Positions 4,015 through 62,549 of a stretch of DNA of 64,000 nucleotides are shown piece after piece (positions within the stretch are counted from its first letter, which is position 1; every line of letters starts with the position of its first letter). The stretch spans positions 186,001 through 250,000 of the forward strand of contig QQUE01000015.1 of assembly GCA_008501765.1 (NCBI GenBank). Direction: 5' to 3'. The DNA is from Calditrichota bacterium (lineage in GTDB: Bacteria; Zhuqueibacterota; Zhuqueibacteria; Zhuqueibacterales; Geothermadaptataceae). The notes beneath the pieces are model-generated. The model ran no database searches. It worked only from the letters and a program-made list of their open reading frames with translations, and had not been told where the DNA came from. A program made the translations under genes and the position numbers.

Positions 4015-5184
4015 TCAGCGGTTGAAAAAATCATTGATGATGGCATTACGGTCTTTTTCTTTCAGGACTTCCAATTCGCCGAGATACACGTGGCCATCGG
4101 CTGGGACTTTGGATTCATCTTCCGTTGCCGTGACCGATTTTTTTACATAGTCATTCAAATGAGAAATATCTTCATTAAAAAGATCAACAGCCGCCTGGCC
4201 GATTTTAAGTTCTTTCAGTTCTTCGTCCAGATTATTTCCCTCGACTACGCAAATCCGGCTTTTGCCGTAGGCCGAATTGTCCAACTGTTCGAGGTCTTCC
4301 AACAAGGGGCGGTTTACGAGTGTTACTTTCCCGCTTACCGGGGATTTAAATGGAATGGAATGCGTCTTCTGCAAAACACTGAAGAGATGATCGCCTTTTT
4401 TAACTTCCATTCCAAGGTTTGGCAAATCGATATCATCAATTTTGCCAATTATTTTCTTGGCAAAATCATCGATCCCGATATCTACCCGGCCATTCTGGTT
4501 TATCGTCGCCCAGCAATGCCCTTCAGATATAAAAACACCTCCGGGAATCGAGAAAGCGACATCGGCGTGCTTTTCTTCAAATGAAGAGTGGGTGATTTTG
4601 ACATTGGATTTTAGCTGCTTGTCCATACGTGCTTTTCGTTTAATCAGGAATTTATTGGTCATCGCCAACAATTCATCTTCGGTAAACGGTTTTTGAACGT
4701 AGTCCAGAGCGCCGAATTTCATTGTTTCGACAGCCGTATCAACCGACGCGTAACCGGTAATAATTATCACGTCGATATCCGGCCGCACATGTTTCACCGA
4801 TTTACACACATCAACCCCATCCATTTCCGGCATTTTTAAATCGGTAAAAACAAAATCATAGTGGCGTTTGCGGATGAGCCCAAGCGCCTCCTGACCCGTT
4901 TCAACCGTATCTACGGAATAGCCATCGAGGACAAGAATTTTTCTAAAACTATCCAGGATGATTTCTTCGTCATCCACCGCCAGAATTTTTGCTTTTGGAT
5001 AATCCACCTCGACCCGTTTTAGAGATTTAGCCTCATGACTGAAATCCAGGTTGAGGTTGACGGCAAGCACTTCTTCCCGTTCTTTACGAATCCGTTTTTC
5101 AGCTCTTTTTCTGATAATTAAACGAATAAAAACATCAGCAACGATAAAGATGACAACAGCGACAATTAAGAGTAGTATACCCAT
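4015..5184 (-). CDS. membrane-anchored response regulator with GcvH-like domain
   Basis: The start is the ATG at 5184, preceded by GGAGG 5 bases away; the upstream ATG at 5196 overlaps this ribosome site. Layout (389 aa): an N-terminal transmembrane helix (MGILLLIVAVVIFIVADVFI), a basic linker, a receiver domain at about 65-185 with phospho-acceptor Asp115 (FTDLKMPEMDG), and a glycine-cleavage H-protein-like domain at about 222-331 (VDIGIDDFAKKIIG ... SPVSGKV). In GcvH the lipoyl lysine lies eight residues before the P of PVSG; here that place is Thr274, with a Lys just before it. There is no DNA-binding domain. It is the last gene of the redox operon, after a second regulator of the same design. 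The output mechanism is unknown. Confidence 0.85.
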   Translation of the reverse strand: MGILLLIVAVVIFIVADVFIRLIIRKRAEKRIRKEREEVLAVNLNLDFSHEAKSLKRVEVDYPKAKILAVDDEEIILDSFRKILVLDGYSVDTVETGQEALGLIRKRHYDFVFTDLKMPEMDGVDVCKSVKHVRPDIDVIIITGYASVDTAVETMKFGALDYVQKPFTEDELLAMTNKFLIKRKARMDKQLKSNVKITHSSFEEKHADVAFSIPGGVFISEGHCWATINQNGRVDIGIDDFAKKIIGKIDDIDLPNLGMEVKKGDHLFSVLQKTHSIPFKSPVSGKVTLVNRPLLEDLEQLDNSAYGKSRICVVEGNNLDEELKELKIGQAAVDLFNEDISHLNDYVKKSVTATEDESKVPADGHVYLGELEVLKEKDRNAIINDFFNR

Positions 5185-5230
5185 TTCAACCTCCATTTAT
5201 GTTCTAAATCTCATATCATAATTGTTTTAT

Positions 5231-6043
5231 TTATAATCTATCTGAACTGCAGGGAATAAGATATTTTGTTTCATAATCCAAATTTGCCGGAACGATTGAA
5301 TAGACCCACCCTCTGAAATAGGGATCTTTTTCGATGATGGCATAATTATTCAAAATCTCTTCATTCCGTTTAATAATCCGGCCGCTTACCGGAGCTAAAA
5401 TATTATGTATAAAGGCATCTTCAGTCATAATTTGTGCACACATATTTCCTTGAAAAATTTCATCCTCCGCTTTGTGCAAATTAATCTGTTGCAATGTACC
5501 AATCGTCCGAAAAAACAGGTCAGTCAAACCGATTTTCAATGATCCATCGTCTTCGAGCAGTGTCCATGTTGCGTACCCTAACCGTTTGTATTTTGGAGGG
5601 CATGGAATATAATGGATCAATTCATCAATAGCGTCAGAGGACAATGTTTCCTTGGCCACTTGTCGTTGAATTTGTGAGTATTTTAGACCGCGGCCAACAA
5701 TGCTTATTAATTCGTCAAATGTAAATGGTTTTGGCAGAAAATCGACGGCACCACGATAGAGCGATTTAACAGCATTCTCCAAAGTAGAAAAGCCTGTGGT
5801 AATAATAACCGGGGTCCCGATTTCTTTTATTCGTAATTGCTCAAGAAATTCAAAACCATCGATGCCGGGCATCATAATGTCGCAGATTATGAGATCGTAA
5901 GTACTCGTATCCAATTTATGCAATCCAACTTTTGCATCCAAAGCAGTGTCGACAAGCCAGCCTTCGGCCCCACATAGTTTTACTATCGAGTCCAGGATAA
6001 CCTGTTCATCGTCAATCGCACAAATTTTAAGTTTTTCACTCAT
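5231..6043 (-). CDS. soluble response regulator with GcvH-like domain
   Basis: 270 residues: receiver domain 5-120 with acidic pair Asp11-Asp12, phospho-acceptor Asp55 (CDIMMPGIDG) and the LPKPF lysine, then a GcvH-like domain at about 155-255 (LKIGLTDLFFRTIG ... APVSGRI). The residue at the lipoyl-lysine place is Ala210, so the domain should not carry lipoate. Unlike its neighbour it has no membrane helix. AGGAAG precedes the ATG. It begins 15 bases after the histidine kinase stop codon, and is the obvious phosphorylation partner of that kinase. Whether the GcvH-like part binds the redox complex, another protein or a small molecule is not known. Confidence 0.85.
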   Translation of the reverse strand: MSEKLKICAIDDEQVILDSIVKLCGAEGWLVDTALDAKVGLHKLDTSTYDLIICDIMMPGIDGFEFLEQLRIKEIGTPVIITTGFSTLENAVKSLYRGAVDFLPKPFTFDELISIVGRGLKYSQIQRQVAKETLSSDAIDELIHYIPCPPKYKRLGYATWTLLEDDGSLKIGLTDLFFRTIGTLQQINLHKAEDEIFQGNMCAQIMTEDAFIHNILAPVSGRIIKRNEEILNNYAIIEKDPYFRGWVYSIVPANLDYETKYLIPCSSDRL

Positions 6044-6058
6044 TTAATGCTTCCTGTT

Positions 6059-7936
6059 TTACAGCTCTTTTTCAATTGGCAAGCGGATGGTAAAAGCGGT
6101 TCCCTTGGCAACCTCACTCTCAACGGTAATCCGGCCATTATGGTTATCAATAATACCCCAAATTACGGCCAAACCAAGTCCCGTGCCTTTTTGGCCTTTT
6201 GTCGTAAAAAAAGGCTCAAATATTTTTGACATGTTTTCCTGCGGGATACCACAGCCTGCATCCGAAACTACTATTTCCACATATTCCTTTTTTCCTTCCT
6301 TCTCTATTGCTTCCCAATACTGCCATTTCCCTCCTTTGATTGCACAGCCTTCAAACCGCCCTTTTCCCGGCACCTCAAAGAAATAAACCGGCCCCCCACA
6401 TTCCGGGCACTTTTTGCTTTTATGAAGTAACGAAACATTGCACTGGGGACAGGAAATATCAACTTCTGATTTATCTTTTAATTTGACACCATGGAGGTTG
6501 CGATTTTTTCCGTAAACTGGATCAAGATTTATGAAACCTTCTTTACCATCCGCATTGGCCTGCACCCGAATTGAAGGCATGCCTTTTATTTTTACGGTCT
6601 GATCCATTAAATTATGTCCGTTGGTGCAAAGCGCACTTTTAACCTGGGTTATTCCCCACGGAGCGAGGCTAATAAGATTCGTTCGCACCGTAATGGCGCC
6701 GCCGTTTTTGTCACTGGCATGAATAGCATTAACAATAAGATTGATAATAACCTGCTGCATCTGGTTCGCATCTACTGTGATTTCCGGCAGATTTTCATCG
6801 AATACTTTTTCCAGATTGATATGATTTATGCTAAGCTGATTATCAACAATGCTGATCGCCCTATCAATAATATCATTTATATTAGCTTTGTTCTTTTTGG
6901 GGATAGATTGTCGGGCGAAATCGAGCAAACCTTTGACAATTTCACGGCTTCGCTTGGTTTCGCGCACGATGACAGATAAATCTTCCTGAAATTCCGGATA
7001 ATTTTTGGTGCGCTTCAGGAGAAAACTGGAGTAGGTTAAAATTCCGGTCAATGGATTATTTATTTCATGGGCAACTCCGGCCGCCAGACGGCCAAGGGAA
7101 GCCATTTTATCCGACTGGAAAAGCTGCAAGCGCGCTTCAGCCAGTTTCTTCGTCATATTGTTAAATGACCGTGCCAGGGCGCCCAGTTCATCACTGCTAT
7201 TCATTTCGATGGTGTAATTCAGGTTCCCTGAAGCGACGCTTTTTGTTGCATCGACGAGCTTGTGCACCGGTTTGTCGACCCAGATCCGCACAAAATAGAG
7301 CAAGACACTGCTAATGGCCAGAATGACGATCAATGTGAATAGCAGCATCCGTATTTTCGAATTGGCCATTCGATCATCGATTGGGTTCAGGCTTACGGTG
7401 ACATCCAGCACGCCGAGCACAACCTGCTCTGAACTGTGCGCATGGCACGGAGCCCGATAACATGCTGGTTCATTATAAATCGGGTTGATCGTACCTAAAA
7501 CCCGGCCAGAATCCGATGCAAAAATCCTGCTACGGTCAGGAATGGATAGTTTTTCCAGCGGCTCGTCTGTCTCATGACAGGTGTAACAGGCTTCCGCATT
7601 TTTATCCACCATAATCCCAATGTGATCGGGATTGGATGAATAAATGATTTCGCCTTCTTTATTGAATATCCGTATTTCCTTAAACGAGTTCTGACGACCA
7701 ACTGCATTAATAATTTCATGGACATGCTCCCGCTCATTCAAAAGCATGCCGAATTTCGTACTGCTACGGATAGTCTCGCTTTGTTGATAAGTGTGACGTT
7801 CCGTTTCAGCAAGCAATGTTTTATTTTGCGATTGCACACTTACGTAAGAGAAAATCCCGATGATTATCGTTATGGAAATACCGACCGCAAAAATCAATTT
7901 AAACACTATTTTTTTAAGCATGGGCTTAACTTTCAT
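6059..7936 (-). CDS. heme-binding sensor histidine kinase with zinc-ribbon insert
   Basis: 625 residues. TM1 at about 10-31; an extracytoplasmic domain (32-195) with a CxxCH heme c motif (CYTCH, 117-121) and a Cx4CH motif (CYRAPCH, 159-165); TM2 at about 197-216; HAMP; and a HisKA helix with phospho-acceptor His290 (GVAHEINNPL). In the ATPase domain, N-box NLIVNAIHAS (399-408) and G1 box DAGCG (559-563) are separated by about 130 extra residues holding a zinc-ribbon pattern (CPQC 496-499, CPEC 510-513) plus Cys437 and Cys531. The F and G2 boxes (FEPFFTTKG, GTGLGLA) are intact, so the kinase is probably active. It sits between the 13-heme cytochrome and two response regulators, and probably senses periplasmic redox state through its hemes. 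Confidence 0.9.
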   Translation of the reverse strand: MKVKPMLKKIVFKLIFAVGISITIIIGIFSYVSVQSQNKTLLAETERHTYQQSETIRSSTKFGMLLNEREHVHEIINAVGRQNSFKEIRIFNKEGEIIYSSNPDHIGIMVDKNAEACYTCHETDEPLEKLSIPDRSRIFASDSGRVLGTINPIYNEPACYRAPCHAHSSEQVVLGVLDVTVSLNPIDDRMANSKIRMLLFTLIVILAISSVLLYFVRIWVDKPVHKLVDATKSVASGNLNYTIEMNSSDELGALARSFNNMTKKLAEARLQLFQSDKMASLGRLAAGVAHEINNPLTGILTYSSFLLKRTKNYPEFQEDLSVIVRETKRSREIVKGLLDFARQSIPKKNKANINDIIDRAISIVDNQLSINHINLEKVFDENLPEITVDANQMQQVIINLIVNAIHASDKNGGAITVRTNLISLAPWGITQVKSALCTNGHNLMDQTVKIKGMPSIRVQANADGKEGFINLDPVYGKNRNLHGVKLKDKSEVDISCPQCNVSLLHKSKKCPECGGPVYFFEVPGKGRFEGCAIKGGKWQYWEAIEKEGKKEYVEIVVSDAGCGIPQENMSKIFEPFFTTKGQKGTGLGLAVIWGIIDNHNGRITVESEVAKGTAFTIRLPIEKEL

Positions 7937-7939
7937 CCA

Positions 7940-9070
7940 TTATTGTAGCGTACGTTTTTGAATGAATTTTCCAGGCAATTTTTCCGGATATGTAATCTCA
8001 TCGTGGCATTCTGAACAAACCGGTTTTTGGTCATAACGCCGTTTTAAATGGCAGTCAACGCAATCATTATCTTCATGATTTTCATCGAAAATAAATCCAG
8101 TAACGCTGTGTTTAAAGGTGCCATTCTCCCAGTTTTTGTGGCATGCCGTACAAGTCTTATCAAGCCTTGAAAACCGGGTACCGCTGTGGCAATCCAAGCA
8201 CGTCAATTTATTGTGATATCGACTGAGAACCCATCCAGTAGTTTGGTGATCGAACGGGGGTTTCTCTTTTGTGTCATGGCACTTCAGGCAATCTTTGTCG
8301 TTATCCGTGTCACAATCGTGGCAGCTCTGACAATTTTCATGAGGCTCCATCTCCACATCGGCCGTTTTTTCCATCGTATCATGGCAGCGGCCGCAGGTCT
8401 CATTTTTATGACAATCAACACATTGTAAACCATAAATATCAGAGTGCGCATCGTGATAAAAAGTGACGATTGGATTGTCTTCATCCGTTTCGTAAACAAC
8501 TTTTGGCAGAATAGGCTCGGTAAACTGGCTCATTTCTGTAAAATTCGTCCCACCTGCGAGCGGTTCGTCGCCTTTTTCGACGTGGCATTTTATGCAGTCG
8601 GTGTCATGACTCCAATCTCTGTGGCAATTCAAGCATTGCCCGTGATAGGCGCCTTTCAATCCAATGACGGTCAAATCATCGCGCAATGCACCCGGTTTGT
8701 GGCATTCGATACAGGCTAAAATATCACCCGGTGGATTATTATGATGGCAGGAAGCACAGCCGCCGGTTGACAGCGCCGACATTTCCGCGTGCAATTTATG
8801 TTTAAAGATCGAAGGCTCATAAAGGTTGGCCAATGTATCAATCGTGACCAACGCTTCTACATCATCGGCCGGGCGCATTATAGACAGCCCTTCCCTTCTA
8901 AAGTCTGGAAATATCGTCAGGCACGGATTTTTATACGTTGGATTCTCACAAGCATGGCATTGGTTGCACTCCAGGGGTGCTTTTGCATGATTTTTAAATA
9001 CTGGCGTTTGAGAGAAAACCACATTGCCGGTGAGGCAAACGGTGAAAAACAGAGATAACATTTTCTTCAT
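7940..9070 (-). CDS. periplasmic 13-heme cytochrome c
   Basis: 376 residues with an N-terminal signal peptide (MKKMLSLFFTVCLTGNVVFS). I count thirteen CxxCH motifs: CNQCH, CASCH, CIECH, CLNCH, CIKCH, CVDCH, CGRCH, CQSCH, CLKCH, CLDCH, CTACH, CVDCH and CSECH. The many extra His residues fit bis-His ligation as in class III cytochromes and the HmcA/TmcA group. The start codon overlaps the NrfD stop (ATGA) and is preceded by AAGGGG. With the ferredoxin and NrfD genes it forms the usual set for a membrane complex that moves electrons between the quinone pool and the periplasm. The heme count matches none of the well-known Hmc (16), Nhc (9) or Qrc (6) cytochromes, so the complex type is left open. 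Confidence 0.93.
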   Translation of the reverse strand: MKKMLSLFFTVCLTGNVVFSQTPVFKNHAKAPLECNQCHACENPTYKNPCLTIFPDFRREGLSIMRPADDVEALVTIDTLANLYEPSIFKHKLHAEMSALSTGGCASCHHNNPPGDILACIECHKPGALRDDLTVIGLKGAYHGQCLNCHRDWSHDTDCIKCHVEKGDEPLAGGTNFTEMSQFTEPILPKVVYETDEDNPIVTFYHDAHSDIYGLQCVDCHKNETCGRCHDTMEKTADVEMEPHENCQSCHDCDTDNDKDCLKCHDTKEKPPFDHQTTGWVLSRYHNKLTCLDCHSGTRFSRLDKTCTACHKNWENGTFKHSVTGFIFDENHEDNDCVDCHLKRRYDQKPVCSECHDEITYPEKLPGKFIQKRTLQ

Positions 9071-10311
9071 CGAATCACCCCTTTCAATCTGATTTTCATG
9101 CTGGCGGCAGTGCCTTTTAATGGTTGACTAATCACTGGAAAAATCATCACAATCAATCTATAGAGCAAAATTTCAAGTGCGATAACACCCAAGGTTACCG
9201 AGATTTCTCCGAAGCTTGGCCAATATGGTTTATCTGCATAAAGCGGGGTGTAGGCTATTATAAAATTATTGAATCTGTTGAGCAGTACGCCAAATATTAC
9301 AAGATTTGAGGCGATAAATAACCAGAATGGGGATCTTTGTACTTTTTCATATAAAAACATACGCAGCGGGACAATAATACCGATTACGATTTCAACGACC
9401 CACATCACACTTTCAAGCGTGATTTCATTCAGATAGACAAATGTTTCGCGAATGGCCATATCCCCAAGCTTAAATCCCAAATATATGCCGAGAAGCGGGC
9501 CAACAAAACGGCTCAATTTTGAGAGAACGTGCATTTCGGGTTTCATTCCAAAGGAGCGAGATGAAATCAGCGATTCCATTATTACCATGGGAAAACCAAC
9601 CGATATTGCTGAGAGCAAATACATCAATGGTGCGATTGGGGATTGCCACAGCGGATGGATTTTTGTCCCTGCAATCATCATTAACGTGCCCAGAGATGAC
9701 TGGTGCAAACAAGAAAGCACCACCCCGAGAATTATGAAAAAAAACAAGGCTTTTTCGATGATACGGTCCAGGAATCGCAATACAGAATCAAGAATTTTAT
9801 TAAATCTGGCAAGAAATCCTTTAAAATTAATCCGCCCGATAAACCGCTCCGTCACGATCGGCATGAATTCGATGTACAAGACTGAAACATAGGCCATGAC
9901 ACAGATGCCGACTTCAAAAAGAACAGAGTTTCCATTCCACATATAAAGTGGATGGTAAATATAGTAGTAGCGTCCCAGGTCGAAAACAACACCGATTGCT
10001 ACAAATGTATAACCAAGCATTGCTGTTAATAATGCCGGGCGAACGATATCATGAAATTCATCTTTATGAAAAATATAGGCCAATGCGGCGGTCGTAAATC
10101 CGCCTGCAGCCAGCGCTACACCCGCAGCTACATCAATTCCAATCCAAATTCCCCAGGGATACTGATTATTTAAATTGGCGACTGCTCCAATCCCTTGAAT
10201 AAACCGAACAGCGCCAAAAAACAACCCATTGACAACAAGAATGGTCAAAACAATAGTTAAAGGTGTAAAAAAGGGTCTTTTAACAGGCATCGCCTTCATC
10301 GATGAATGCAT
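9067..10311 (-). CDS. NrfD/HybB-type quinone-interacting membrane protein
   Basis: 414 residues with about ten hydrophobic helices, matching the NrfD/PsrC/HybB family of integral membrane subunits that exchange electrons with menaquinone. The opening PFFTPLTIVLTILVVNGLFF followed by YPWGIWIGIDVAAGVALAAGG is typical of the HybB-like branch. The ATG lies one base after the ferredoxin stop, with GGAG inside the end of that gene, so the two are translationally coupled. It should anchor the ferredoxin and the 13-heme cytochrome at the membrane. No large catalytic molybdopterin or hydrogenase subunit is encoded here, so the complex looks like a pure electron-transfer module, as in Hmc or Nhc. Confidence 0.92.
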   Translation of the reverse strand: MHSSMKAMPVKRPFFTPLTIVLTILVVNGLFFGAVRFIQGIGAVANLNNQYPWGIWIGIDVAAGVALAAGGFTTAALAYIFHKDEFHDIVRPALLTAMLGYTFVAIGVVFDLGRYYYIYHPLYMWNGNSVLFEVGICVMAYVSVLYIEFMPIVTERFIGRINFKGFLARFNKILDSVLRFLDRIIEKALFFFIILGVVLSCLHQSSLGTLMMIAGTKIHPLWQSPIAPLMYLLSAISVGFPMVIMESLISSRSFGMKPEMHVLSKLSRFVGPLLGIYLGFKLGDMAIRETFVYLNEITLESVMWVVEIVIGIIVPLRMFLYEKVQRSPFWLFIASNLVIFGVLLNRFNNFIIAYTPLYADKPYWPSFGEISVTLGVIALEILLYRLIVMIFPVISQPLKGTAASMKIRLKGVIR

Positions 10312-10312
10312 A

Positions 10313-11218
10313 TTATTCTCCTGACTCGAGTTCGTTTCCGTTTTTATTTTTACCCATCCACATTATGCCGCCCAGAAGAGCGAACAAGGAGATCGGAGGA
10401 ATGAAATATTTAAATATAGCATGCTGAATTGACTCAGATGCGCCGGGAGCCGGTGCATCGCTATGCTCCGGTAGCGCGAGTTCTTTAAAATCCCTGGCCG
10501 CCAAATACATCCACGAGGTGCCACCAACTTCGTGTTCACCATAAATATGATTGATATAGCGATCTGGATTTGCTTCTATTTTTTTCCGGGCCAATTTAAC
10601 GAGTTCAAATCGTTTCCCGTAAGTGAGAGCTTCCATCGGACAAATTTCCACACAGGCAGGAATGCCACCGTCTTTTGTGCGATCGAAACAAAAGTCGCAT
10701 TTCATAATTCGTGGTTGAATTGCTTTTTCATATTCGAATGCCGGTACTTGAAACGGGCAGGCTACCATACAATAGCGACAGCCGATGCATTTATCCGTAT
10801 CCCAAATAACAGCGCCATTCTCTTGCTTTGAAAAAGCTCCTACGATACAGGCAGAAACACAGGCAGGCTGGTCGCAGTGCATACATTGCACTTTAACATC
10901 GATTGGCCGGGCTGTGTTTTCAGGATTTTCAAATTGATTGACAACAGTCAGCGCGTCGACGTCCGGCCTTCTCATATTTTCAAAAACGGAACGATCGTCA
11001 TAATCTTTCATCTCACCATTGGGGATATCATGCGCACCACGGCATGCAAATTCACACCGGCGACAGCCAATACAAACGGTTGTATCAACAAGAACCCCCA
11101 TGCGGTCGTCGGATAGAATGTTTTTTGGGCCTGCACTCACTTTATCGGGTTTTACTCCGGCAATGCCAGCGCCTATAACTCCAGCAGTTTTTATAAAATT
11201 TCGTCGGGATTGATTCAT
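10313..11218 (-). CDS. Tat-exported four-[4Fe-4S] ferredoxin subunit (HybA-like)
   Basis: 301 residues. It has a twin-arginine signal (SRRNFIKTAG) and four cysteine groups of the DmsB/NrfC/HybA type: CIGCRRCEFAC, CMHCDQPACVSAC, CIGCRYCMVAC and CDFC...CVEIC. These would hold four [4Fe-4S] clusters. A C-terminal hydrophobic helix (IFKYFIPPISLFALLGGIMW) anchors it from the periplasmic side, as in HybA. It is the electron wire between the NrfD subunit and the multiheme cytochrome. Its ATG directly follows the stop of the NifX-like gene (TAAATG), with GGAGG inside that gene's end. The direction of electron flow cannot be told from sequence. Confidence 0.92.
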   Translation of the reverse strand: MNQSRRNFIKTAGVIGAGIAGVKPDKVSAGPKNILSDDRMGVLVDTTVCIGCRRCEFACRGAHDIPNGEMKDYDDRSVFENMRRPDVDALTVVNQFENPENTARPIDVKVQCMHCDQPACVSACIVGAFSKQENGAVIWDTDKCIGCRYCMVACPFQVPAFEYEKAIQPRIMKCDFCFDRTKDGGIPACVEICPMEALTYGKRFELVKLARKKIEANPDRYINHIYGEHEVGGTSWMYLAARDFKELALPEHSDAPAPGASESIQHAIFKYFIPPISLFALLGGIMWMGKNKNGNELESGE

Positions 11219-11569
11219 TTAGCCATCCTCCTTATTACTATTACCCGGCATCGAAAATAATGACTTTATATCCTCTCCATCACAAAGGGCTGATAGAATT
11301 TTATCCACATTTCCACAGACGTAAGGGATGGTTTTAATATTTTTGTTTCGGATACTGTCCAATAGCGGGCGTGTTATCCCGCCACAAATAAAGATATCAA
11401 TTCCGAGATTGTCTAATAATTCAATGCGTTGATAAATCGTAAGTGATTCGAGACTCAACATCTCTTTTTTGGCAAGCATTTTATCAATTATTTCTGCTTG
11501 CAGTATATGTGCTGTTGTATCGAACACAGGGGAAATACGATTTTCCCATACAGGAATTGCAACTTTCAT
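11219..11569 (-). CDS. NifX-like dinitrogenase cofactor-domain protein
   Basis: 116 residues from the ATG at 11569 (MKVAIPVWENRISPVFD). This start has GGAGG 5 bases upstream, whereas the longer frame to 11641 would run through the -24/-12 promoter. The fold is the NifB/NifX/NafY-type Fe-Mo-cofactor-binding domain (IPV.ENR.SPVFD..., ...FICGGITRPLL). There are no nitrogenase genes in the window. Small proteins of this family occur beside iron-sulfur and redox genes and may carry metal clusters or act as regulators. It is the first gene of the redox operon. The last ~15 residues (MPGNSNKEDG region) are a poorly conserved tail. Confidence 0.8.
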   Translation of the reverse strand: MKVAIPVWENRISPVFDTTAHILQAEIIDKMLAKKEMLSLESLTIYQRIELLDNLGIDIFICGGITRPLLDSIRNKNIKTIPYVCGNVDKILSALCDGEDIKSLFSMPGNSNKEDG

Positions 11570-11590
11570 GGCAGCCTCCGACCCGCAAAA

Positions 11591-11606
11591 AGCAAGGTTA
11601 ATGCCA
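11591..11606 (-). promoter_or_regulatory. sigma-54 (-24/-12) promoter of the redox operon
   Basis: On the minus strand the site reads TGGCATTAACCTTGCT. The GG and GC doublets are exactly 10 bases apart, as sigma-54 promoters need. Transcription would start near 11580, just ahead of the GGAGG and ATG of the NifX-like gene, giving a very short leader. A sigma-54 enhancer-binding protein is encoded directly upstream, which supports the call. Confidence 0.82.
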
Positions 11607-11695
11607 TGAAAACCATAACAAGATAACTGTTTTAAAAACAATTTTTTATAATGAGAATTAATTATTTAATTGTAAGAATAAAGAGAAGCAATCTT

Positions 11696-11757: not shown

Positions 11758-13134
11758 TTAGACGGTGTTTTTGCTGCGGCCATCAATTGCGGGGAGTGTG
11801 ATACCTAATTGCTTGATTTTTCGGAACAAGGTTGTTTTATGAATACCAAGTTTTGCAGCCGCGGCAAGGCGGTTCCAGTTGTTCTTTTCAAGCGCGTCGA
11901 GAATCGTGCGTTTTTCCAGGTCCTTCACCGATTCATCTTCTATTTTTACCGGGGTTGCGATGTTTTTTGAAATGATTAAATCGGGGGGCAAATTTTCCAG
12001 TTCAATAACTTTTCCCGGGCATAACACCAGAGCACGCTCGATAATATTTTCCAATTCGCGTACATTGCCCGGAAAATTATACTGCATGAGCACTTCCAAA
12101 ACTTTTGGCGAGGTGCCCTCCACATTTTTACCGAGAATGTGGTTGTGCTTCTTTCTGAAATGTTTGACCAGATACGGTATGTCCTCCGGCCGCTCGCGCA
12201 ATGGAGGAATGGTAATTTTGATAATATTTATTCGATAATACAAGTCCTGCCGAAATTTTCCTTCTTCAACCAATTGCGATACATTTTTATTCGTCGCGGC
12301 AATCACTCGAACATCAGCTTTGATAGTTTCTGTGCTGCCAAGGGGTTCGTATTCCTTATCCTGTAAAAACCGCAACAGCCTGACCTGAAAAGCAGGCGAT
12401 ATATCGCCAATTTCATCCAGGAGAATTGTCCCACCTTCAGCTTGGGCAAACCGTCCCTTTTTATCTCTTTTCGCATCGGTAAATGCTCCGGCTTTATAGC
12501 CAAAAAGCTCGGATTCGAGCAGAGTATCCGGCAGGGCACCGCAATTCACGGCAATGAGCTTTTTGTTTTTCCGCTTGCTTAAATCATGAATAACCCGGGC
12601 AAAAAGCTCCTTCCCGGTACCGCTTTCCCCTTCGATCAAAACCATGCTGCCACTTTGAGCGACCTGGGGCAGAATATCAAAAATCAGTTTCATATTCCGG
12701 TTCTTGCTGATGATATCGGAAAAAGTATATTTTTTTTCCAGTTCTTTGCGCAGCTTGCTTTCCAAAGAAAGATCGCGCATGATTTCAACAGCCCCGATTA
12801 TATGCCCTTTTTCCCCTCGGAGTGAAGCTGTTGAAATGCTGACAGGAATCTGTTCGCCGGAAGAATTGAGGATGTAAATGGTTTTCGAGGTAACCGGTTC
12901 TCCGGTTTCCATCGTTTTATAGAGCACACAATCCGTTTCACAAATATTGGAACGAAACACATTGTAGCACGCCTGACCGATTGCATCTTCCCGGGATATG
13001 CCGGTTATTTTTTCAGCCGCCGTATTAAAGGTGGTGATTCGCTTTCCCTTGTCGATCGTGAAAACACCTTCGGTAATATTATCCAATATTATTTTGCTGT
13101 AGCGATCGACTTTTTTTTGATAGTCCCTTGGCAT
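11758..13134 (-). CDS. sigma-54 enhancer-binding regulator with Cys-PAS domain
   Basis: 458 residues: PAS domain (about 10-125), AAA+ ATPase (about 145-375) and Fis-type helix-turn-helix (about 410-447, LAAAAKLGIHKTTLFRKIKQLG). Walker A is GESGTGKE and Walker B is GGTILLDEIGD. The sigma-54 contact loop reads GAFTDA instead of GAFTGA, a variant seen in other family members. The PAS domain has Cys56, Cys65 and Cys69 (CYNVFRSNICETDC), which could bind an iron-sulfur cluster or react to redox change. It has no receiver domain, so it is not an obvious target of the nearby kinase. It probably activates the -24/-12 promoter just downstream by binding the two dyads. Confidence 0.9.
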   Translation of the reverse strand: MPRDYQKKVDRYSKIILDNITEGVFTIDKGKRITTFNTAAEKITGISREDAIGQACYNVFRSNICETDCVLYKTMETGEPVTSKTIYILNSSGEQIPVSISTASLRGEKGHIIGAVEIMRDLSLESKLRKELEKKYTFSDIISKNRNMKLIFDILPQVAQSGSMVLIEGESGTGKELFARVIHDLSKRKNKKLIAVNCGALPDTLLESELFGYKAGAFTDAKRDKKGRFAQAEGGTILLDEIGDISPAFQVRLLRFLQDKEYEPLGSTETIKADVRVIAATNKNVSQLVEEGKFRQDLYYRINIIKITIPPLRERPEDIPYLVKHFRKKHNHILGKNVEGTSPKVLEVLMQYNFPGNVRELENIIERALVLCPGKVIELENLPPDLIISKNIATPVKIEDESVKDLEKRTILDALEKNNWNRLAAAAKLGIHKTTLFRKIKQLGITLPAIDGRSKNTV

Positions 13135-54241: not shown

Positions 54242-57200
54242 TTATTTGAGTAATAGCATTTTGCGGGATTCATGGAATTGGCCTGCCCTGATTTGATAAT
54301 AATAGACGCCCGAAGGAACAAGCGTTCCGCTATTTCCACGGCCATCCCAAAGTACTGTATGCATTCCCGGGCTCATCTGCCGGTTGACCAACGTTTTGAC
54401 TTCCTGTCCCAACGTGTTGAATATTTTCAACATGACATCGGTATTTTCAGGGAGCTGAAATCGGATATTCGTCGATGGATTAAACGGATTTGGATAATTC
54501 TGACTCAGTGAAAAAGATTGCGGAACATCCATAATCACAACGACGGGTCCATGCACTTCTTTGGCGCCGGAATAGGAAACATCCTCGAGTTTATAATAGT
54601 AGCGTTCACCAGCCACAGCCGTTACATCCACAAAACTGTAGTTGCCAGAGCCATCCGGTTTTATGAGTTCTGCATTGATTGGCACATACCCATCATCGCG
54701 TCGAATGCTGCGTAAAATGTTATAACCAAAATTATCAATTTCATTGGCAGTTACCCAATGCAGCGTTACTCCACTGGCAGCGAGGGCCGAAGCTGAAAAA
54801 TTGACCAATTGGACAGCATTTGTTACATCCCAACGCCGAGTTGCTTCAAGTTTGCCATCGGTAACGCGTACTTCGATAGTGTGCAACTTGCCTGAACCTT
54901 GTTTATAAACATAAACACTGGTTGAAGCCACGTGTTTGCCGTCGAGGTACCACAAATAGGAAAGTTGGTCACCATCGGCGTCAACAGCTGAAACACTGAA
55001 CTCAAATTCAGGTCGATTTCCAACGAATACCGCGCTTTCAGATGGCTGGGAACTGGAGATAATTGGAGCGCGGTTGGTGTTATTTACCTTAATTGTTACG
55101 AGGTATTCTGAAACGCCGCCTTTGCCGTCATTCGCCACAAAAATCACATCGTGGAATCCAGCATCATCGCTTGTTGTCGTCCATTCAAAACGCCGGTTGC
55201 CGTTGACGTTAAAAATAGCGCCGGCCGGTTTATTTTTTGCACTCAGCGTGATGGGATCGCCATCGGCATCGGAAGCAGCCACAGTGAAGGTGATCGAGCT
55301 GCCTTCATTAAGGACTTTCGATGGAATTTCCACGAATGCCGGGAAATTGTTTGTCTCACTCTGTGCGGTGAAATTAACCGTTTCCGAGCTCTTGGCATCG
55401 AGAATAGCTTTCACACCATTTTGCCCAACCACAGAGCCCAGTTTCCAGAATGCTGCCGCATAACCACGCTCATCCGTTGTTACTTGAGAGGCTTTCATAC
55501 TTCCGCCACCCTGGGTAATTATAAAAGAGACTGTAGTATTTGCTACCGGGTTGTTGTTGATATCCGTCACTAAAACACGTTGCGGATAAGAGAGAAATTT
55601 ATTCACTGTTCCCTTCTGCTGGTTTCCATCCACCAAACTCATGGAGGTAGCCGCAGAAGCGGCTGCTGTCAAATTGAAAGTAACCGGTGAATTGACCAAT
55701 CCATTTCCCGAAACACGAATCTGCCGTTCACCAGCATCCGCACCGAATGTAAAATCAACATTTGCGAAGCCTTCTTCATTGGAGACTTTCTGTACATCGG
55801 AGAGAACACCTGTGCCTTTTACCAGTGAATAACTTATAATTACGCCAGAAACCGGATTATCGAATTTATCCGTCACCCGAACAGACAGGCCACCACCTAA
55901 TTTTTGGTTAACGGAGCCAACCTGTGTCAACGCGGACAAAGCTTTTATTGCATAAGCAGTCCCACTGGTACCATAGGCTTGAAATGTTGTTGTTATTGAA
56001 ATTCCTGAGGCGATGGCTTGCATTATATTTGGCCCAACATTTGGCCCCAGGCGCCAATTAACGCGCGCCAAACCAAATGCATCGGTGCGAATTTGTGCGG
56101 TGGGTTGTCCATTAATTGAACCACCACCATAAGTTACTTCGTATGTCACCAAATGGCCAAATACCGGATTACCGCTGGCATCGAGCACTTTCAAGCCCGG
56201 GGCTTCCGGCAAAAGCTCACCAGCAGCGGCGCTTTGATCGTCACCCGGACCCGGGATAACAATGGTACCGGCGTTGGAATGGCCGGTGGCGCTGAATGAA
56301 ATTGGTGAACCACTCAAGCCGTCAGCATAGGCACGAACGGTGTTGTTTGAGCCACTTTGCCCGAGCACAAATGATACATTCGCCAATCCACTGGAATCTG
56401 TTCGAACCGGTTGCTGCTCTAAAATATATCCGGTTCCCGCTTCGATCTTAAAATTGATTGCATGATTAAAAATGGGATTATCGTTTACATCGGTAACTTT
56501 TACAACAAAAGGATTTTCCAGCACCGTACCCAAATTTCTTTCCTGACCATTGCCGGAATGGAGAGAAATTTTTGAGGCAGCCTGAGCCAAAAATTGAATT
56601 ATTGTGCCACTTGAAATATGCACACCGCTCGTCAACTCGATAGCCGTCACAGTCTTAATTCCTGCAACACGTGAGGAAACGTAGGCTTTAACGACACCTT
56701 CCGCATCAGAGGCTGTAACAGGCTGTTCGATATTATTTCCTTCCCCGGAAACCTGAATCGTAACATAACCACCGGAATAAGGATTATCAAATTTATCCCG
56801 TAAATGGATAACTATTTCAGATTTGGTTTGACCATCGGCCATAACAGGGGTTATTGCATCAATGTAGGAGACCAGAGAATCCGGTAAGCCGGCTTTTGCA
56901 GTCGCCTTAAAAACGATGGGAGCATTGAGTAGTAAATCTTGCCCATCTGTTGAGGTTGCTTGTAGTTCCTGTGCTAAATTGCCGAGCGCTCCACCGAGAT
57001 ACCACGATGTCGTCGCTCTGCCCTGAGCATCTGTGATGTCGACAAATGTGGTATCCGTGGTCCCGTTGAGTTTCCCGCCACCTTTTATAACTTTAAATTC
57101 AACAGGGTGCTGTCCCACCGGATTTCCTTGCCTATCTTTGACAACAACGACAAGCGAGTCATCGAGAATTTGACCAGCTGAACCGACTTGATTATTCCCG

Positions 57201-60200
57201 CCAATGTATGCCAGGCTATAGGCACTGTTCGCCGTACCACTCGCGATGAAGGTGACAGGGGAATTTTCAAGTGGCGTTGTTCCATTTTTCGCACTGGCCT
57301 CGACTTTATTATTATCAACACCGGCTGTTGAACCAACGCTAAACGAAGCGCTTGCAATCCCATTTATGTCCGTTTTGACTGTACGGGTCGTCGCACCCTG
57401 AAGCTTGCCACCACCCAATTTCACTGTGAAAACAACGCTGTGATTTACAATTCCGTTGCCGGCGTCATCGGTTATTTTTACTTGCAGGGGTTCCGCCAGC
57501 GGATTGCCAACCACACCTTTCTGGTTGTTTCCACCGACAATTTCGATGCGTTTCGGTGCGCCTGCTTTCGCTGATGCTGAAAAAGTAATCGGTGATCCAC
57601 TGAGCGGCTGGCCCTTGTAATCCGTAAATGCATCGACGGTATTATTGCCTGTTCCCGCAATCGGGCCTAAAAAGAAATTAACCTGAGCGACACCATTGTT
57701 ATCTGTATAAATTTGTTTTTGCGTATCGTTATTCCCCAAATGGCCGCCACCATTGGTGACACTAAATTCTGCTAGCCAATTGGGAATTCCATTATTCAAC
57801 ATATCAATTACACGCACTTTTAATGGCTGGCCAAGCTCGGAACCGACGGTACCAATCTGGTTATTGCCATCGAGTAGCATAATTTGTTTCAAATCGGCTG
57901 CTGTCGCATTAATCTGTTTTGAAGTTTGGCTAAATCCCACGGAGGCTTCAACGGAGTTTAATGCACCGGGTTCGTTGCCTAAAGTGAGTGAAACAACGGC
58001 CCTTCCATTCGCGCCAGTGGGCACTTCAATCAGGGTTTCACCATTGAAATTACCGCCACCCTCAACAACCCGAAATTGCACTGGATAGCCTGAAATAGGT
58101 GTAGCGCCGACATCCTGAACCAGAATTTCGATCGGGTCAGGCAGGGGTAATCCTGCAGAACCTTGCTGATTTTCAGGTGAAACAACGGAAAACATACTCG
58201 GCTCCGCCGTGCTGGCATAAAACAGCTCCCCGGAACCATCAAGAGTTGCACTATTTAGATAGGAAAATATTTGTACAATATTTTCTGTATTTGCGTTTGG
58301 CCCCAAAGTAAGAGTCACAGCTGCAAATCCACTCGCATCTGTGAGTATAATTTTAGGTGATACCGCACTACCGTCAAGCAATCCACCACCTTGAATATTG
58401 TGAAATTCTACCGGATGGTTCGCAATGCCATTGCCTGTTTTATCTGTCACCTGTACTTCAAATGGAATTGGTAATGCCGTGTTTACCGCACCAGACTGCT
58501 TGGGATCTGCGCCTTTCGTAATGCGCACGGCAAATGGATCACCAGCCTCGGCCGTTGCAGTAAAAGTTTTTGGAGAACCAAAAAGCGGGGAGCCTGCTTT
58601 AAATGCTTCCGCTTTAATATTCTGTGTGCCGGCCGGATTTCCGAGAGTCCAGATCGCATCCAGCTCACCATTTGCGTCGGACACATGTTCGATGCGGATT
58701 TGATCTAAATCCACAATAATATCTTTATTAACAATTAGATGCAATGACAGGACGTCATAATTAACGGCATCATAAGTAAAATAATGGACGAAGTGCTTCC
58801 AGCCGCCTGCAATAGGTGGTAGCGTCAGCTCTTCCATCTTGTCATCACTATTTTTGCGCAATTCAATATTGATCGCAGGGTTGGTTGTGCCCGTTATTTT
58901 ATAATAAAAGCTCAAAGCCAGCCGTTGGTCGGTTGCAGGCAAATTCGTGAGACTCTGGGAAATCGAAGCGCCGTTCATGCCCGTCACATTTATTCTTTGG
59001 GCGGATTGGCTGAGATAACCAGCGACCTTGCTATGCGTCATTGCCGCATCCGTTTCTCTCCACGAATTCCAACCTGGAGCCACATCACCGACATCCCCAA
59101 AATCATCGGTTTTAGTTACATATTCACCCTCAAGATCACTATTCATTATTAAATGATTTTTATTGGTTGTTCCGCCATCACCAATTGTTACGAAAGAGAG
59201 GGGATAATCCTTCACACCTGCACCGGTTTGATCTTGCACTCGTACAACAATATTGTCGTTCAGCGCTTCGCCTGCGGTTGCCGATTGATTATTGCCACTG
59301 ATCAATTCAAGCCGGCTCGCTAAACCAGAAGTCGTTTTAGGGACAAATGTAGCCGGAGAGCCTGCCAGACCTGCGGCAAATGCTTCAACAATATTTAAGC
59401 CGGCTTGAGCGCCATAAGTAAGAATGACTTCGGCCACACCATTAACATCGGAAATAACCGGATCTGCAGTATTTAAATACCCACCACCCTGCGTCACCAC
59501 GAACTGCACTTTATAACCCGCGACCGGATTTCCTTTATCATCGTCGATGCGAACAGCCAGGGTGTCTTTTGTACCCGCAGGACCGTCTACGATGCTGCTA
59601 ACATTTAATCTGGAAATCGTCGCTGCGTCGTCGGCCGTTATTGTAAGACTGACTGGCGTTGATAATTCGCCATATTGGGCTGTCAATGTTACCGGGCCGG
59701 GGGTGTCGCCAGCTGTAATCCCAGCCGAAACACGCCCCGCCGTATTGGTTACGTAGCCTTGCGATGGCTCTTCATCCTGAGGAGTATAGTTTGGATCTTT
59801 GGTAATTAAAATTTTATCGAGCCACGTCTGGTCGTGCCATGCGTGAAAACGAATATTGTGGCTGCCGGCATCGAGTGTGGGTGTAAATGTTCCACCGTTC
59901 TTTAAAATTTTAACCCAACGCCAGTTGGAGGCAAAACCCAATTCATAAAGGAATTGATCCCCGTCCTCATCAAGCTCAATTTTGTAACTGTAACTTCCTA
60001 CACTGTTCTGGCTGCCGAGATAGCGCATCCAGATATAATAAGTTGCTGTTTCCGGAATATTGAAATTGATTTGTACCCAGCCATCGGGCCCGGGGCTGCC
60101 CGCAGCAACATCGTAAGTGACGTATTTGCCACCAGAAGCATTGGGGTCGGATTTGACCAGCATATAATCAGCAATTCCTGCCGCACCGTCAATAATGCCA

Positions 60201-62062
60201 TTCTCGGCTTCTTTGCGAATGTTGCCGTCACCGGTTTTATCGAAAGTCACCGCATTGGCCGGATCAACAATAAATTCGATTTCTTCGCCAACGACAGCTT
60301 CACCATTCGAATCCAACAATTCCAGGACTACCGGCTGTGGGAAAGCCGTGCTCACAGGCGCTTCCTGATTATTGCCAGAGACGAGGTTCAAATCCGTCGG
60401 CCCGGTCGGTTCAACTGCGACACTGAATTCATCCAGCTCATTTCCCGTACCACCGACATTGTTGTTGAGAATAAATCCGCCCCACCAATCTGAATCCTGA
60501 TTAAAACCGGGGCTGGCAACTTGAAATTCACGATCAAAGGTGCCATCAACAGTTACTGTAATATTCAATTCACCCAAATCACCAAAAGTCAGTGCTACCT
60601 TCAACTCTGAACCCGGTGTTGGATCCGTACTTTGAGAATCACCGGAGCCGAGTTCAGTCCCAGGCACTCCACTAGTAACTTCATACAAAACAGTTTTTGA
60701 GGGCGACCCAACTCGGCGCTGCACCAAATATCCATTGGCCAGATCCGTGGCGCTTTTAGCGATAAATAAACCGCTGTATTGCAGCAAATTCGCATCGGCA
60801 TTTGCGCCCCATTTAAATGAAATCTCATACGGCTTTTTAACTTTAGTAAAAACGGCGCCATAATCAAATGCATCCGGAGCAGATGTCGTAGTTTGGACGG
60901 TGCCTCCCACGATATTCAATGTTGCATCGGCACTCCAATTGGCTCCTAAATTTGGTCCGGCACGTTCAAAATCATCTTTTTGGGTGACCAGCGATGTCGG
61001 TACATAGCCACCGCCACCTCCGCCGCCGCCACCGCCATCTGCTGTTGTAGCCGTGGACGGAACGTTTGAAATAGCACCGGCATTGCCAAACTCATCAATC
61101 GCTTTGATGGCAAAAAAGTAGGTGGTTTCAGCAGTTAAACCATTTACCGTTAAATTTTCACCGGCTCCAGCAGATTTTGGAACCGGCCCACCGATTTGTT
61201 GCTCACCATCAAAACTTAAAGCAGTTATTGCGGTCGTTGAATAACGAATATCATAACTGATTGCCTGGCCGACTGTACCGTCATCACCAACGGATGTCCA
61301 GCTCAAATCGATCGAGGATGTCGTTGGATTCCCTGCAGCAAGAGTAATTGCTGCGGGCGGCGTATTATCAATCTCTGTTTCCATAAAAAAATCATCGACG
61401 GCATTATTGGTGTTATTATTGATCATGACACCAGCTTTTGTAGCTCCCGCACCACCCTGCAGGCCCTGTGTATCAACCAATGTTCCTTCATGGGTGCCAT
61501 TGCGGTAAACATTGAATGTGCGAGTTGAGCCTGTTTTATAAAAAGCGACCTGAAATGCATCACCGGCAACTGTTGCTGTATTCGTTTTTGAAGGAACGTC
61601 TTGAATATTACCGCCGACAACAACACCTGCCTGGACTTCAAAAAGCTTTAATCTGTAAGTTGAACCACTCTTAGGTCGAAAAATCAAGTATCCGTTTGGC
61701 TTGTTTTGTGCGTCCATTTCAACCAAAACGAGCAAACCGGAATATTGCCGGCCTAACTCGTCGGAGTCTGCGCCAAAAGTAAATTTTACTGAATTGGGAT
61801 CGATACCTTGCGTATGTACCGCCCAAAAATCATCGAATCCGTCATACGACGAAGATGTATCAGGCATAACAAGCTGGTTATTTTTAATTTCGAACCCGGT
61901 TCCCTGCGTCCAGTTGGGGCCAAGGTCAGTTGAGTTCGCCCGGTTAAAATCATCCGTAGTTTGCCCATAAACAGTGGCCGCACTTCCTAATCCAAAAAAG
62001 AGAAGTGTAATTCCGAGGATGCGTTGTGTTTTTCTCATTGCACGGCTTACTTTTGTAAACAT
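54242..62062 (-). CDS. giant secreted Ig-repeat protein with T9SS sorting domain
   Basis: 2,606 residues from ATG 62062, preceded by AAGGAGAG. Layout: signal peptide (to about 34); LamG-like domain (35-230); fibronectin III (235-340); a Gly-rich linker; second LamG-like domain (360-550); thirteen invasin/Big_1-like Ig repeats (about 555-2250), many starting with a GNNQ..G motif; a cadherin-like/PKD-like pair (EGSSITFTVAASDADGD and SAVDADGDQLSYLWYLDGK); and a C-terminal sorting domain (QNYPNPFNPSTNIRF ... SGVYYYQI). Two Ig repeats are interrupted by carbohydrate-binding-like modules (about 616-756, CBM6/malectin-like, and about 970-1140, CBM4-like). It is probably exported by a type IX system and displayed on the surface, for adhesion or glycan binding. 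No catalytic domain was seen. Confidence 0.9.
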   Translation of the reverse strand: MFTKVSRAMRKTQRILGITLLFFGLGSAATVYGQTTDDFNRANSTDLGPNWTQGTGFEIKNNQLVMPDTSSSYDGFDDFWAVHTQGIDPNSVKFTFGADSDELGRQYSGLLVLVEMDAQNKPNGYLIFRPKSGSTYRLKLFEVQAGVVVGGNIQDVPSKTNTATVAGDAFQVAFYKTGSTRTFNVYRNGTHEGTLVDTQGLQGGAGATKAGVMINNNTNNAVDDFFMETEIDNTPPAAITLAAGNPTTSSIDLSWTSVGDDGTVGQAISYDIRYSTTAITALSFDGEQQIGGPVPKSAGAGENLTVNGLTAETTYFFAIKAIDEFGNAGAISNVPSTATTADGGGGGGGGGGYVPTSLVTQKDDFERAGPNLGANWSADATLNIVGGTVQTTTSAPDAFDYGAVFTKVKKPYEISFKWGANADANLLQYSGLFIAKSATDLANGYLVQRRVGSPSKTVLYEVTSGVPGTELGSGDSQSTDPTPGSELKVALTFGDLGELNITVTVDGTFDREFQVASPGFNQDSDWWGGFILNNNVGGTGNELDEFSVAVEPTGPTDLNLVSGNNQEAPVSTAFPQPVVLELLDSNGEAVVGEEIEFIVDPANAVTFDKTGDGNIRKEAENGIIDGAAGIADYMLVKSDPNASGGKYVTYDVAAGSPGPDGWVQINFNIPETATYYIWMRYLGSQNSVGSYSYKIELDEDGDQFLYELGFASNWRWVKILKNGGTFTPTLDAGSHNIRFHAWHDQTWLDKILITKDPNYTPQDEEPSQGYVTNTAGRVSAGITAGDTPGPVTLTAQYGELSTPVSLTITADDAATISRLNVSSIVDGPAGTKDTLAVRIDDDKGNPVAGYKVQFVVTQGGGYLNTADPVISDVNGVAEVILTYGAQAGLNIVEAFAAGLAGSPATFVPKTTSGLASRLELISGNNQSATAGEALNDNIVVRVQDQTGAGVKDYPLSFVTIGDGGTTNKNHLIMNSDLEGEYVTKTDDFGDVGDVAPGWNSWRETDAAMTHSKVAGYLSQSAQRINVTGMNGASISQSLTNLPATDQRLALSFYYKITGTTNPAINIELRKNSDDKMEELTLPPIAGGWKHFVHYFTYDAVNYDVLSLHLIVNKDIIVDLDQIRIEHVSDANGELDAIWTLGNPAGTQNIKAEAFKAGSPLFGSPKTFTATAEAGDPFAVRITKGADPKQSGAVNTALPIPFEVQVTDKTGNGIANHPVEFHNIQGGGLLDGSAVSPKIILTDASGFAAVTLTLGPNANTENIVQIFSYLNSATLDGSGELFYASTAEPSMFSVVSPENQQGSAGLPLPDPIEILVQDVGATPISGYPVQFRVVEGGGNFNGETLIEVPTGANGRAVVSLTLGNEPGALNSVEASVGFSQTSKQINATAADLKQIMLLDGNNQIGTVGSELGQPLKVRVIDMLNNGIPNWLAEFSVTNGGGHLGNNDTQKQIYTDNNGVAQVNFFLGPIAGTGNNTVDAFTDYKGQPLSGSPITFSASAKAGAPKRIEIVGGNNQKGVVGNPLAEPLQVKITDDAGNGIVNHSVVFTVKLGGGKLQGATTRTVKTDINGIASASFSVGSTAGVDNNKVEASAKNGTTPLENSPVTFIASGTANSAYSLAYIGGNNQVGSAGQILDDSLVVVVKDRQGNPVGQHPVEFKVIKGGGKLNGTTDTTFVDITDAQGRATTSWYLGGALGNLAQELQATSTDGQDLLLNAPIVFKATAKAGLPDSLVSYIDAITPVMADGQTKSEIVIHLRDKFDNPYSGGYVTIQVSGEGNNIEQPVTASDAEGVVKAYVSSRVAGIKTVTAIELTSGVHISSGTIIQFLAQAASKISLHSGNGQERNLGTVLENPFVVKVTDVNDNPIFNHAINFKIEAGTGYILEQQPVRTDSSGLANVSFVLGQSGSNNTVRAYADGLSGSPISFSATGHSNAGTIVIPGPGDDQSAAAGELLPEAPGLKVLDASGNPVFGHLVTYEVTYGGGSINGQPTAQIRTDAFGLARVNWRLGPNVGPNIMQAIASGISITTTFQAYGTSGTAYAIKALSALTQVGSVNQKLGGGLSVRVTDKFDNPVSGVIISYSLVKGTGVLSDVQKVSNEEGFANVDFTFGADAGERQIRVSGNGLVNSPVTFNLTAAASAATSMSLVDGNQQKGTVNKFLSYPQRVLVTDINNNPVANTTVSFIITQGGGSMKASQVTTDERGYAAAFWKLGSVVGQNGVKAILDAKSSETVNFTAQSETNNFPAFVEIPSKVLNEGSSITFTVAASDADGDPITLSAKNKPAGAIFNVNGNRRFEWTTTSDDAGFHDVIFVANDGKGGVSEYLVTIKVNNTNRAPIISSSQPSESAVFVGNRPEFEFSVSAVDADGDQLSYLWYLDGKHVASTSVYVYKQGSGKLHTIEVRVTDGKLEATRRWDVTNAVQLVNFSASALAASGVTLHWVTANEIDNFGYNILRSIRRDDGYVPINAELIKPDGSGNYSFVDVTAVAGERYYYKLEDVSYSGAKEVHGPVVVIMDVPQSFSLSQNYPNPFNPSTNIRFQLPENTDVMLKIFNTLGQEVKTLVNRQMSPGMHTVLWDGRGNSGTLVPSGVYYYQIRAGQFHESRKMLLLK

Positions 62063-62549
62063 TCGGTCTCTCCTTGATTCGTCTATCAAGAGCGAAGGCA
62101 GGAATCCTTTTCCACGCCTTGTAGCAATTATTTTTTAGTTTATATGTTAGTTATCGTTTTATTCCTACCGCATCGTTAACAAACTTTATGCCAGTGGCAT
62201 TTTCTTCACAATTCAAGCTCAAAACAGCCGATTGCAGCCGTACACCAGACATAACACTGTCTCATGAAAGAACACTAAATTTGTGTTCCCTTCAGACACT
62301 GTTCCAAATTAATGCAGAGGGTAATTTGTGCTCAGAAATTATGGATCAAAAATCTGAATTTGATTTCAATGGATCGAATGAAAACCTGTCATTTTATGAA
62401 GGAAAATCAACCGGGGAATTATCACAATTCAACGGACTCATAAATCCACAAAAGGAAAGCAGTTAATTGTCGGGTTATCCAATTAAGTCAGCAAACTTAA
62501 AACTATGATTAATAGATAATTGTCCGCTAATTACACAAATTTTAAGAAT
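62063..62549. other. upstream region of the giant gene
   Basis: Should hold the promoter of the minus-strand giant gene. A 92-codon plus-strand frame (62188-62466) has no ribosome site and no recognisable product, so it is not called. GGGTTATCCAATTAAGTCAG near 62473 resembles, but is not identical to, the end of the fold-back element at 20189. Confidence 0.5.

Follow-up and report, generated by a model that had tools for sequence, protein, structure and literature searches.

Two adjacent genes in a 64,000-nucleotide stretch of DNA from a deep-branching Calditrichota bacterium (hereafter, the window) encode response regulators, REC-H1 and REC-H2, in which a receiver domain (REC) is fused to the fold of the glycine cleavage H protein (GcvH) and the lipoyl lysine is missing. 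The initial annotation had read this as recruitment of the GcvH fold as an output domain without its cofactor, and that reading is supported by structure, by a lipoyl-site change extending across phyla, by the phylogenetic tree, and by a conserved operon. A role as response-regulator output does not cover the whole family, because lipoyl-less H proteins also occur without a receiver, beside NrfD-type complexes. The explanation we favor, to which we assign an even chance, is that the pair are response regulators with a cofactor-free H-fold adaptor as output, controlled through phosphorylation by a c-heme kinase and tuning an NrfD-type complex.

Domain organization and fold of the fusion proteins

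Both proteins match the Pfam profiles Response_reg (E = 2.5e-30 for REC-H1 and 3.6e-26 for REC-H2) and GCV_H (1.3e-14 and 1.5e-14; 54 bits against a cut-off of 22.2), and the Pfam scan detected no DNA-binding domain in either. In AlphaFold models (pLDDT 94 for REC-H2 and 83 for REC-H1, with the H domain of the latter mostly above 90), the best Foldseek matches of both are GcvH crystal structures (PF01597; PDB 3a7a, 3a8i, and 1onl), which are matched over the whole domain (TM 0.86 for REC-H2 and 0.92 for REC-H1). Together with the two Pfam matches, these scores confirm the two receiver-GcvH fusions that had been proposed from the letters. The GcvH landmarks HxW, PVSG, and PYxxGW are present, whereas the lipoyl Lys and the ExVKA motif are absent; further differences from GcvH are the fusion to a receiver, the placement in a separate clade, and, in REC-H1, an additional C-terminal tail. 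A weak match to the NqrA N-terminal domain (PF05896; E = 0.003, below cut-off) was also recorded; that domain has a related barrel-sandwich hybrid fold without lipoate but differs in architecture and has no receiver.

The receivers are complete. Residues D75, D76, D119 (the phospho-acceptor), T147, and K169 of REC-H1 (393-aa numbering) are invariant in 56/56 homologues, and the corresponding residues of REC-H2 are intact in 55/55, the position of T83 being occupied by Thr in 53 and Ser in 2; both proteins have the acidic pocket, phospho-Asp, Thr/Ser, and Lys of a response regulator. The REC-H1 open reading frame could alternatively begin at an ATG at 5196 (4015-5196, minus strand; 393 aa), but translation probably starts at the ATG at 5184, to judge from a GGAGG 5 nt upstream and from the position at which homologues begin. 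Hydropathy of REC-H1 peaks at residue 6 (3.2), and the transmembrane (TM) threshold was passed by 75/76 REC-H1 and 3/61 REC-H2 homologues, bearing out the suggestion that one copy is membrane-anchored and the other soluble; that the two have different partners, as was also suggested, is a guess. The anchor would have an N-out, C-in topology, placing the REC and H domains of REC-H1 in the cytoplasm.

Table 1. Features of the REC-H genes and their operon (window coordinates).
Feature	Coordinates	Strand	Description
REC-H1	4015..5184	-	N-terminal transmembrane helix, receiver, lipoyl-less GcvH fold, C-terminal helical tail; 389 aa
Membrane anchor of REC-H1	5107..5184	-	Hydropathy; positive residues after it
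Receiver domain of REC-H1	4660..4986	-	Response_reg match
Phospho-acceptor Asp codon of REC-H1	4840..4842	-	Asp in 56/56 homologues
GcvH-fold domain of REC-H1	4180..4524	-	Pfam match; TM 0.92 to E. coli H-protein
Thr at lipoyl-lysine position of REC-H1	4363..4365	-	T274 from ATG 5184, T278 from ATG 5196
Lys273 of REC-H1 (K277, 393-aa numbering)	4366..4368	-	Hairpin tip, residue just before lipoyl position
REC-H2	5231..6043	-	Soluble receiver + lipoyl-less GcvH fold; 270 aa
Receiver domain of REC-H2	5696..6025	-	Phospho-acceptor D55 (codon 5879-5881)
GcvH-fold domain of REC-H2	5258..5569	-	TM 0.86, rmsd 1.4 A to E. coli apo-H
Lipoyl position of REC-H2	5414..5419	-	A210 (5414-5416), D209 (5417-5419)
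Histidine kinase	6059..7936	-	Periplasmic sensor with CxxCH + CxxxxCH, HAMP, HisKA, HATPase_c with zinc-ribbon-like insert
Multiheme cytochrome c	7940..9070	-	13 CxxCH
NrfD/HmcC/HybB-like membrane subunit	9067..10311	-	Profile matches
HmcB/HybA-like Fe-S protein	10313..11218	-	Tat signal
NifX-like small protein	11219..11641	-	Nitro_FeMo-Co, E 0.003, below cut-off (weak Pfam match)
PAS + sigma54 AAA + Fis activator	11758..13134	-	Profile matches

Loss of the lipoyl site

The lipoyl position was located by counting back eight residues from the conserved Pro of PVSG; at this place, 16/16 canonical GcvH proteins from related genomes carry the lipoyl Lys in EAVKA. This count and a gap-free profile alignment of REC-H1 H domains with PDB H-proteins both place the Thr column of REC-H1 on the lipoyl Lys, in agreement with the initial assignment of Thr274. 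For REC-H2, Ala210 had been assigned to the site; an ungapped count returns that residue, but an alignment that accommodates a one-residue hairpin insertion before PVSG puts D209 there, and there is no Lys either way. The modeled hairpin tip of REC-H1 comprises two residues, K273-T274, and that of REC-H2 spans E208-F211; neither protein has a lipoyl Lys within ExVKA at the tip (T274; D209/A210).

The two families have parted from GcvH differently at this site. The lipoyl column is hypervariable among REC-H1 homologues (N 19, K 9, H 7, T 5, Q 4, G 4; n = 56; entropy 2.9 bits), and in REC-H2 it is mostly acidic (column 209: D 37, E 12, N 4; n = 55, that is, D/E in 49/55), with H213 (54/55) and Q198 (55/55) also conserved. 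The REC-H2 site has been replaced, not released from constraint. It is highly unlikely that the H domains are still lipoylated, be it on Lys273 or, in some homologues, on a Lys in the lipoyl column. Lys273 does lie at the hairpin tip of the model, as the initial annotation had allowed for, but it precedes the lipoyl position by one residue and its column holds mostly Gly (G 33, K 11, N 7; n = 56). Homologues that keep a Lys, which had been named as a possible refutation, do exist (14/89 REC-H1 proteins, with Ignavibacteria among their sources); however, Glu at -3 and Ala at +1 of the signature kept by the canonical relatives are each found in 0/56 aligned REC-H1 sequences. Lipoylation of these Lys-bearing homologues is unlikely, because the signature residues are gone and Lys is about equally common at the neighboring variable columns. 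The acidic REC-H2 column also argues against lipoylation, as does the contrast with LbpA, the GcvH-like lipoate-binding protein of Hdr-type sulfur oxidation, in which the lipoyl Lys is strictly conserved (PMC6067878). We rejected lipoylation at K273 or in the Lys-bearing homologues, as conservation gives it no support.

Relation to glycine cleavage

The only other GCV_H match in the 5.9 Mb genome to which the window belongs is a canonical 126-aa GcvH with the motif GTIEAVKAVSD on contig C15. Strong GCV_H matches were present in all 61 Calditrichota genomes searched and in nearly all of the 22 fusion-bearing genomes, the exception being a 2.0 Mb assembly (G080). Given the canonical GcvH of this genome and the strong matches throughout the Calditrichota set, we rejected the fusions as GcvH replacements. 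A divergent gcvP lies at 13788 in the window, but none occurs at the 49 related loci examined (0/49); the adjacency is peculiar to this genome, and we rejected it as meaningful. These data bear on the possibility that the H domain is a GcvH mimic or decoy that binds GcvP or GcvT and regulates glycine cleavage under phospho-control: despite the fold shared with the H-protein, the gcvP in the window, and a canonical GcvH encoded elsewhere in the genome, this is very improbable, because gcvP is missing from the related loci and the association throughout is with respiratory genes.

A conserved operon with a putative heme kinase and an Hmc-like complex

The genes occur in the order HmcB-like, NrfD, 13-heme cytochrome, heme kinase, REC-H2, and REC-H1, with little variation among loci. 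Across the 49 loci with at least 6.5 kb of upstream sequence, and with partners counted on the same strand, all five partners were present at 39, NrfD at 44, REC-H2 at 46, and the cognate kinase gene, upstream of the REC-H pair, at 48. The NifX-like gene and the sigma54 activator occupy the same upstream place in three distant relatives (L059, L069, L078), and some REC-H1 genes (L037, L052) stand away from the Hmc-like genes. With the Hmc/Hyb-type complexes (HmcABC, HybAB), the operon shares HmcB- and HmcC/HybB-like subunits and a multiheme c3-type cytochrome, and it differs from them in having a heme kinase of its own and a pair of REC-H proteins. All three Hmc-like subunits missed the NCBIfam equivalog cut-offs (HmcB 329/420, HmcC 282/550, and HmcA 53/400 bits).

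The sensor of 66/76 homologous kinases contains CxxCH plus CxxxxCH, and from these motifs it is predicted to bind c-type heme. The HATPase_c domain of the kinase harbors an insert of ~130 aa between the N box and the G1 box (about residues 420-555) with a zinc-ribbon-like CPxC...CPxCG motif, of a kind found in 41/76 homologous kinases; the insert may give the kinase an additional redox or metal switch, on the cytoplasmic side. Downstream of REC-H1, the operon often continues into a run of multiheme cytochromes (16-19, 4, 14, and 5-9 hemes) plus a gene for a ~420-aa protein, as at L059, L060, L066, L074, L105, and L113; the arrangement resembles an extracellular electron transfer cluster. Elsewhere in the window, the minus strand contains a 2615-codon open reading frame (54242-62089).

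Lipoyl-less H proteins without a receiver

Receiver-free lipoyl-less H proteins are of two types. The membrane-anchored type (TM-H) has ~230 aa and a C-terminal tail in which an xDGG motif is frequent; the soluble type has ~260-280 aa and a Cys-containing N-terminus. REC-H1 and the TM-H type have in common the TM helix and the tail that follows the GcvH domain. Neighbors of the receiver-free genes include HmcB, NrfD, the heme kinase, a REC-sigma54 regulator, and often an archaemetzincin. Among proteins with at least 4 kb of sequence on both sides, NrfD or HmcB lay within 4 kb of 32/33 receiver-free lipoyl-less H proteins, many of them 0-20 bp from NrfD, and of 0/5 Lys-bearing H-like proteins, the pattern defining "Lys-bearing" being loose and having misclassed two proteins outside the 33 and 5 counts (L157, L170).

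The position of these H genes bears on two alternatives to a regulatory adaptor. Under one of them, the H domain acts as a chaperone in the assembly of the Fe-S/NrfD/cytochrome complex and does not regulate the complex once it is finished. The H genes adjoin or overlap NrfD and come as multiple paralogues per operon, as a chaperone might, but a link with a receiver and a heme sensor is more in keeping with regulation than with housekeeping assembly, and we regard this alternative as improbable. The other, which is also unlikely although it deserves more weight, holds that REC-H1 and REC-H2 serve the kinase as a phosphate relay or sink, that they need the H domain only for dimerisation or stability, and that the true output is sigma54-regulated transcription. 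There are two receivers per kinase, a sigma54 activator lies upstream in the window and at the three relatives named above, and REC-sigma54 regulators occur near the kinase in the receiver-free clusters; REC-H proteins acting as phosphate sinks or scaffolds would produce much the same genomic pattern. However, the sigma54 activator of the window has no receiver, and a relay to it is therefore not obvious; moreover, the cross-phylum conservation of the H domain exceeds what dimerisation needs, and receiver-free H proteins follow NrfD, not the kinase alone.

Further relatives were found in other settings. A third REC-H type (L154, L155, L156, L158) is located beside a cytosolic NiFe hydrogenase set, with no NrfD; these loci also encode a ~1046-aa HEAT/AAA/WD40-like protein, and in three of the four a kinase is next door (Cache-type in L155). 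The principle may therefore extend beyond NrfD, and NrfD need not be the sole partner, because the REC-H1 genes that stand apart from Hmc-like genes and the third type at the hydrogenase both depart from that arrangement. An archaemetzincin-like protein (Peptidase_M54) accompanies lipoyl-less H proteins at 12 loci (L042, L043, L044, L046, L047, L048, L075, L096, L157, L163, L164, L171), which mostly also have NrfD/HmcB, the heme kinase, and the REC-sigma54 regulator; the L042 copy exceeds the NF033823 cut-off. These loci connect a protease with respiration. At L159 (5534-12320) and L160, H proteins flank a pentaheme cytochrome, a Tat-type molybdopterin-Fe4S4-like protein, and NrfD, in clusters that resemble Qrc/alternative complex III.

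Distribution and origin of the fusions

When the REC-H1 H domain was searched against 84,980 species genomes, 260 loci were recovered, and the best 80 of these belong to Calditrichota, Ignavibacteriota, "Bacteroidetes" MAGs, Elusimicrobiota, Gemmatimonadota, Kiritimatiellota, and two Xanthomonadales MAGs (MAG names as deposited). Cultivated carriers of the operon include Stygiobacter electus (L105) and Melioribacter. Loss of the lipoyl site is not local decay. In the tree, lipoyl-less H proteins form one side of a branch (support 92/82), outside both LbpA and GcvH (GcvH clade, 100/98). REC-H1 (100/96) and REC-H2 (97/82) are separate clades, and REC-H1 groups beside some TM-H proteins (97/80). 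The hypothesis that all REC fusions go back to one event is rejected by a narrow margin only (p-AU 0.049), and the corresponding test on the REC-domain tree gave p 0.25; it seems that REC joined the lipoyl-less H domain once or, more likely, twice. Because the N-terminal TM helix and the C-terminal tail are shared and the tree groups REC-H1 with TM-H proteins, REC-H1 looks like a TM-H membrane partner into which REC was inserted.

LbpA is likewise a GcvH-fold paralogue, active in redox metabolism. Unlike REC-H, it keeps the lipoyl Lys and has two Cys; REC-H has neither a conserved Lys nor the hdr-like linkage typical of LbpA, its neighbors being Hmc-like. Two Calditrichota loci (L049, L051) encode Lys-bearing LbpA-like proteins (ESSKWVG and EAEKYVG) whose genes are not adjacent to NrfD and probably belong to Hdr-type sulfur oxidation loci.

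A complete receiver and an adjoining cognate kinase are features that REC-H proteins share with response regulators with non-DNA-binding outputs. To our knowledge, no response regulator with an H-protein fold as output has been characterised. No Pfam or NCBIfam family specific to lipoyl-less H proteins was found, and a search of a literature collection with few subscription journals yielded no description of REC-GcvH proteins or of these operons, which is weak evidence of novelty. The combination of Response_reg and GCV_H may well be listed in domain databases already; what seems new is the lipoyl-less family, the substitution of the site, and the respiratory operon.

A model for the REC-H pair and its implications

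The adaptor model builds on the H-protein fold, the lost lipoyl site, the intact receiver residues, the operon, and the association of receiver-free relatives with NrfD. The H domain would act as an adaptor between proteins; the lipoyl-less family of which it is a member is found alongside NrfD-type (Hmc/Hyb-like) quinone-cytochrome complexes. The sensor kinase of the same operon, loaded with c-type heme, would sense the periplasmic redox or ligand state and phosphorylate both receivers, and phosphorylation would alter the contacts that the H domains make with the NrfD/Fe-S/13-heme complex on its cytoplasmic side, with REC-H1 acting from the membrane and REC-H2 from the cytosol. Electron flow or complex assembly would then be tuned directly and not via DNA. 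In its most specific form, in which a periplasmic c-heme kinase directly controls the NrfD-cytochrome complex by phosphorylating two regulators whose cofactor-free H-fold output docks on it, the proposal is tentative, and we hold it slightly more doubtful than not. More generally, conservation of the pair across phyla in an operon with a heme sensor and a respiratory electron-transfer complex suggests that the old GcvH fold has been reused as a respiratory switch or docking piece.

In this family, a carrier fold from core metabolism has lost its cofactor and been taken up for signalling, and its conservation in several phyla shows that this is not an isolated event. The family also suggests a testable function for genes that automatic pipelines would label "glycine cleavage system H" or simply "response regulator"; such genes should not be counted as glycine-cleavage capacity in metabolic reconstructions. 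If the model is true, a response regulator controls electron flow post-translationally and the GcvH fold gains a non-catalytic job; docking of the H domain on the NrfD complex, if it occurs, could allow multiheme-rich bacteria to gate respiratory branches quickly, without transcription.
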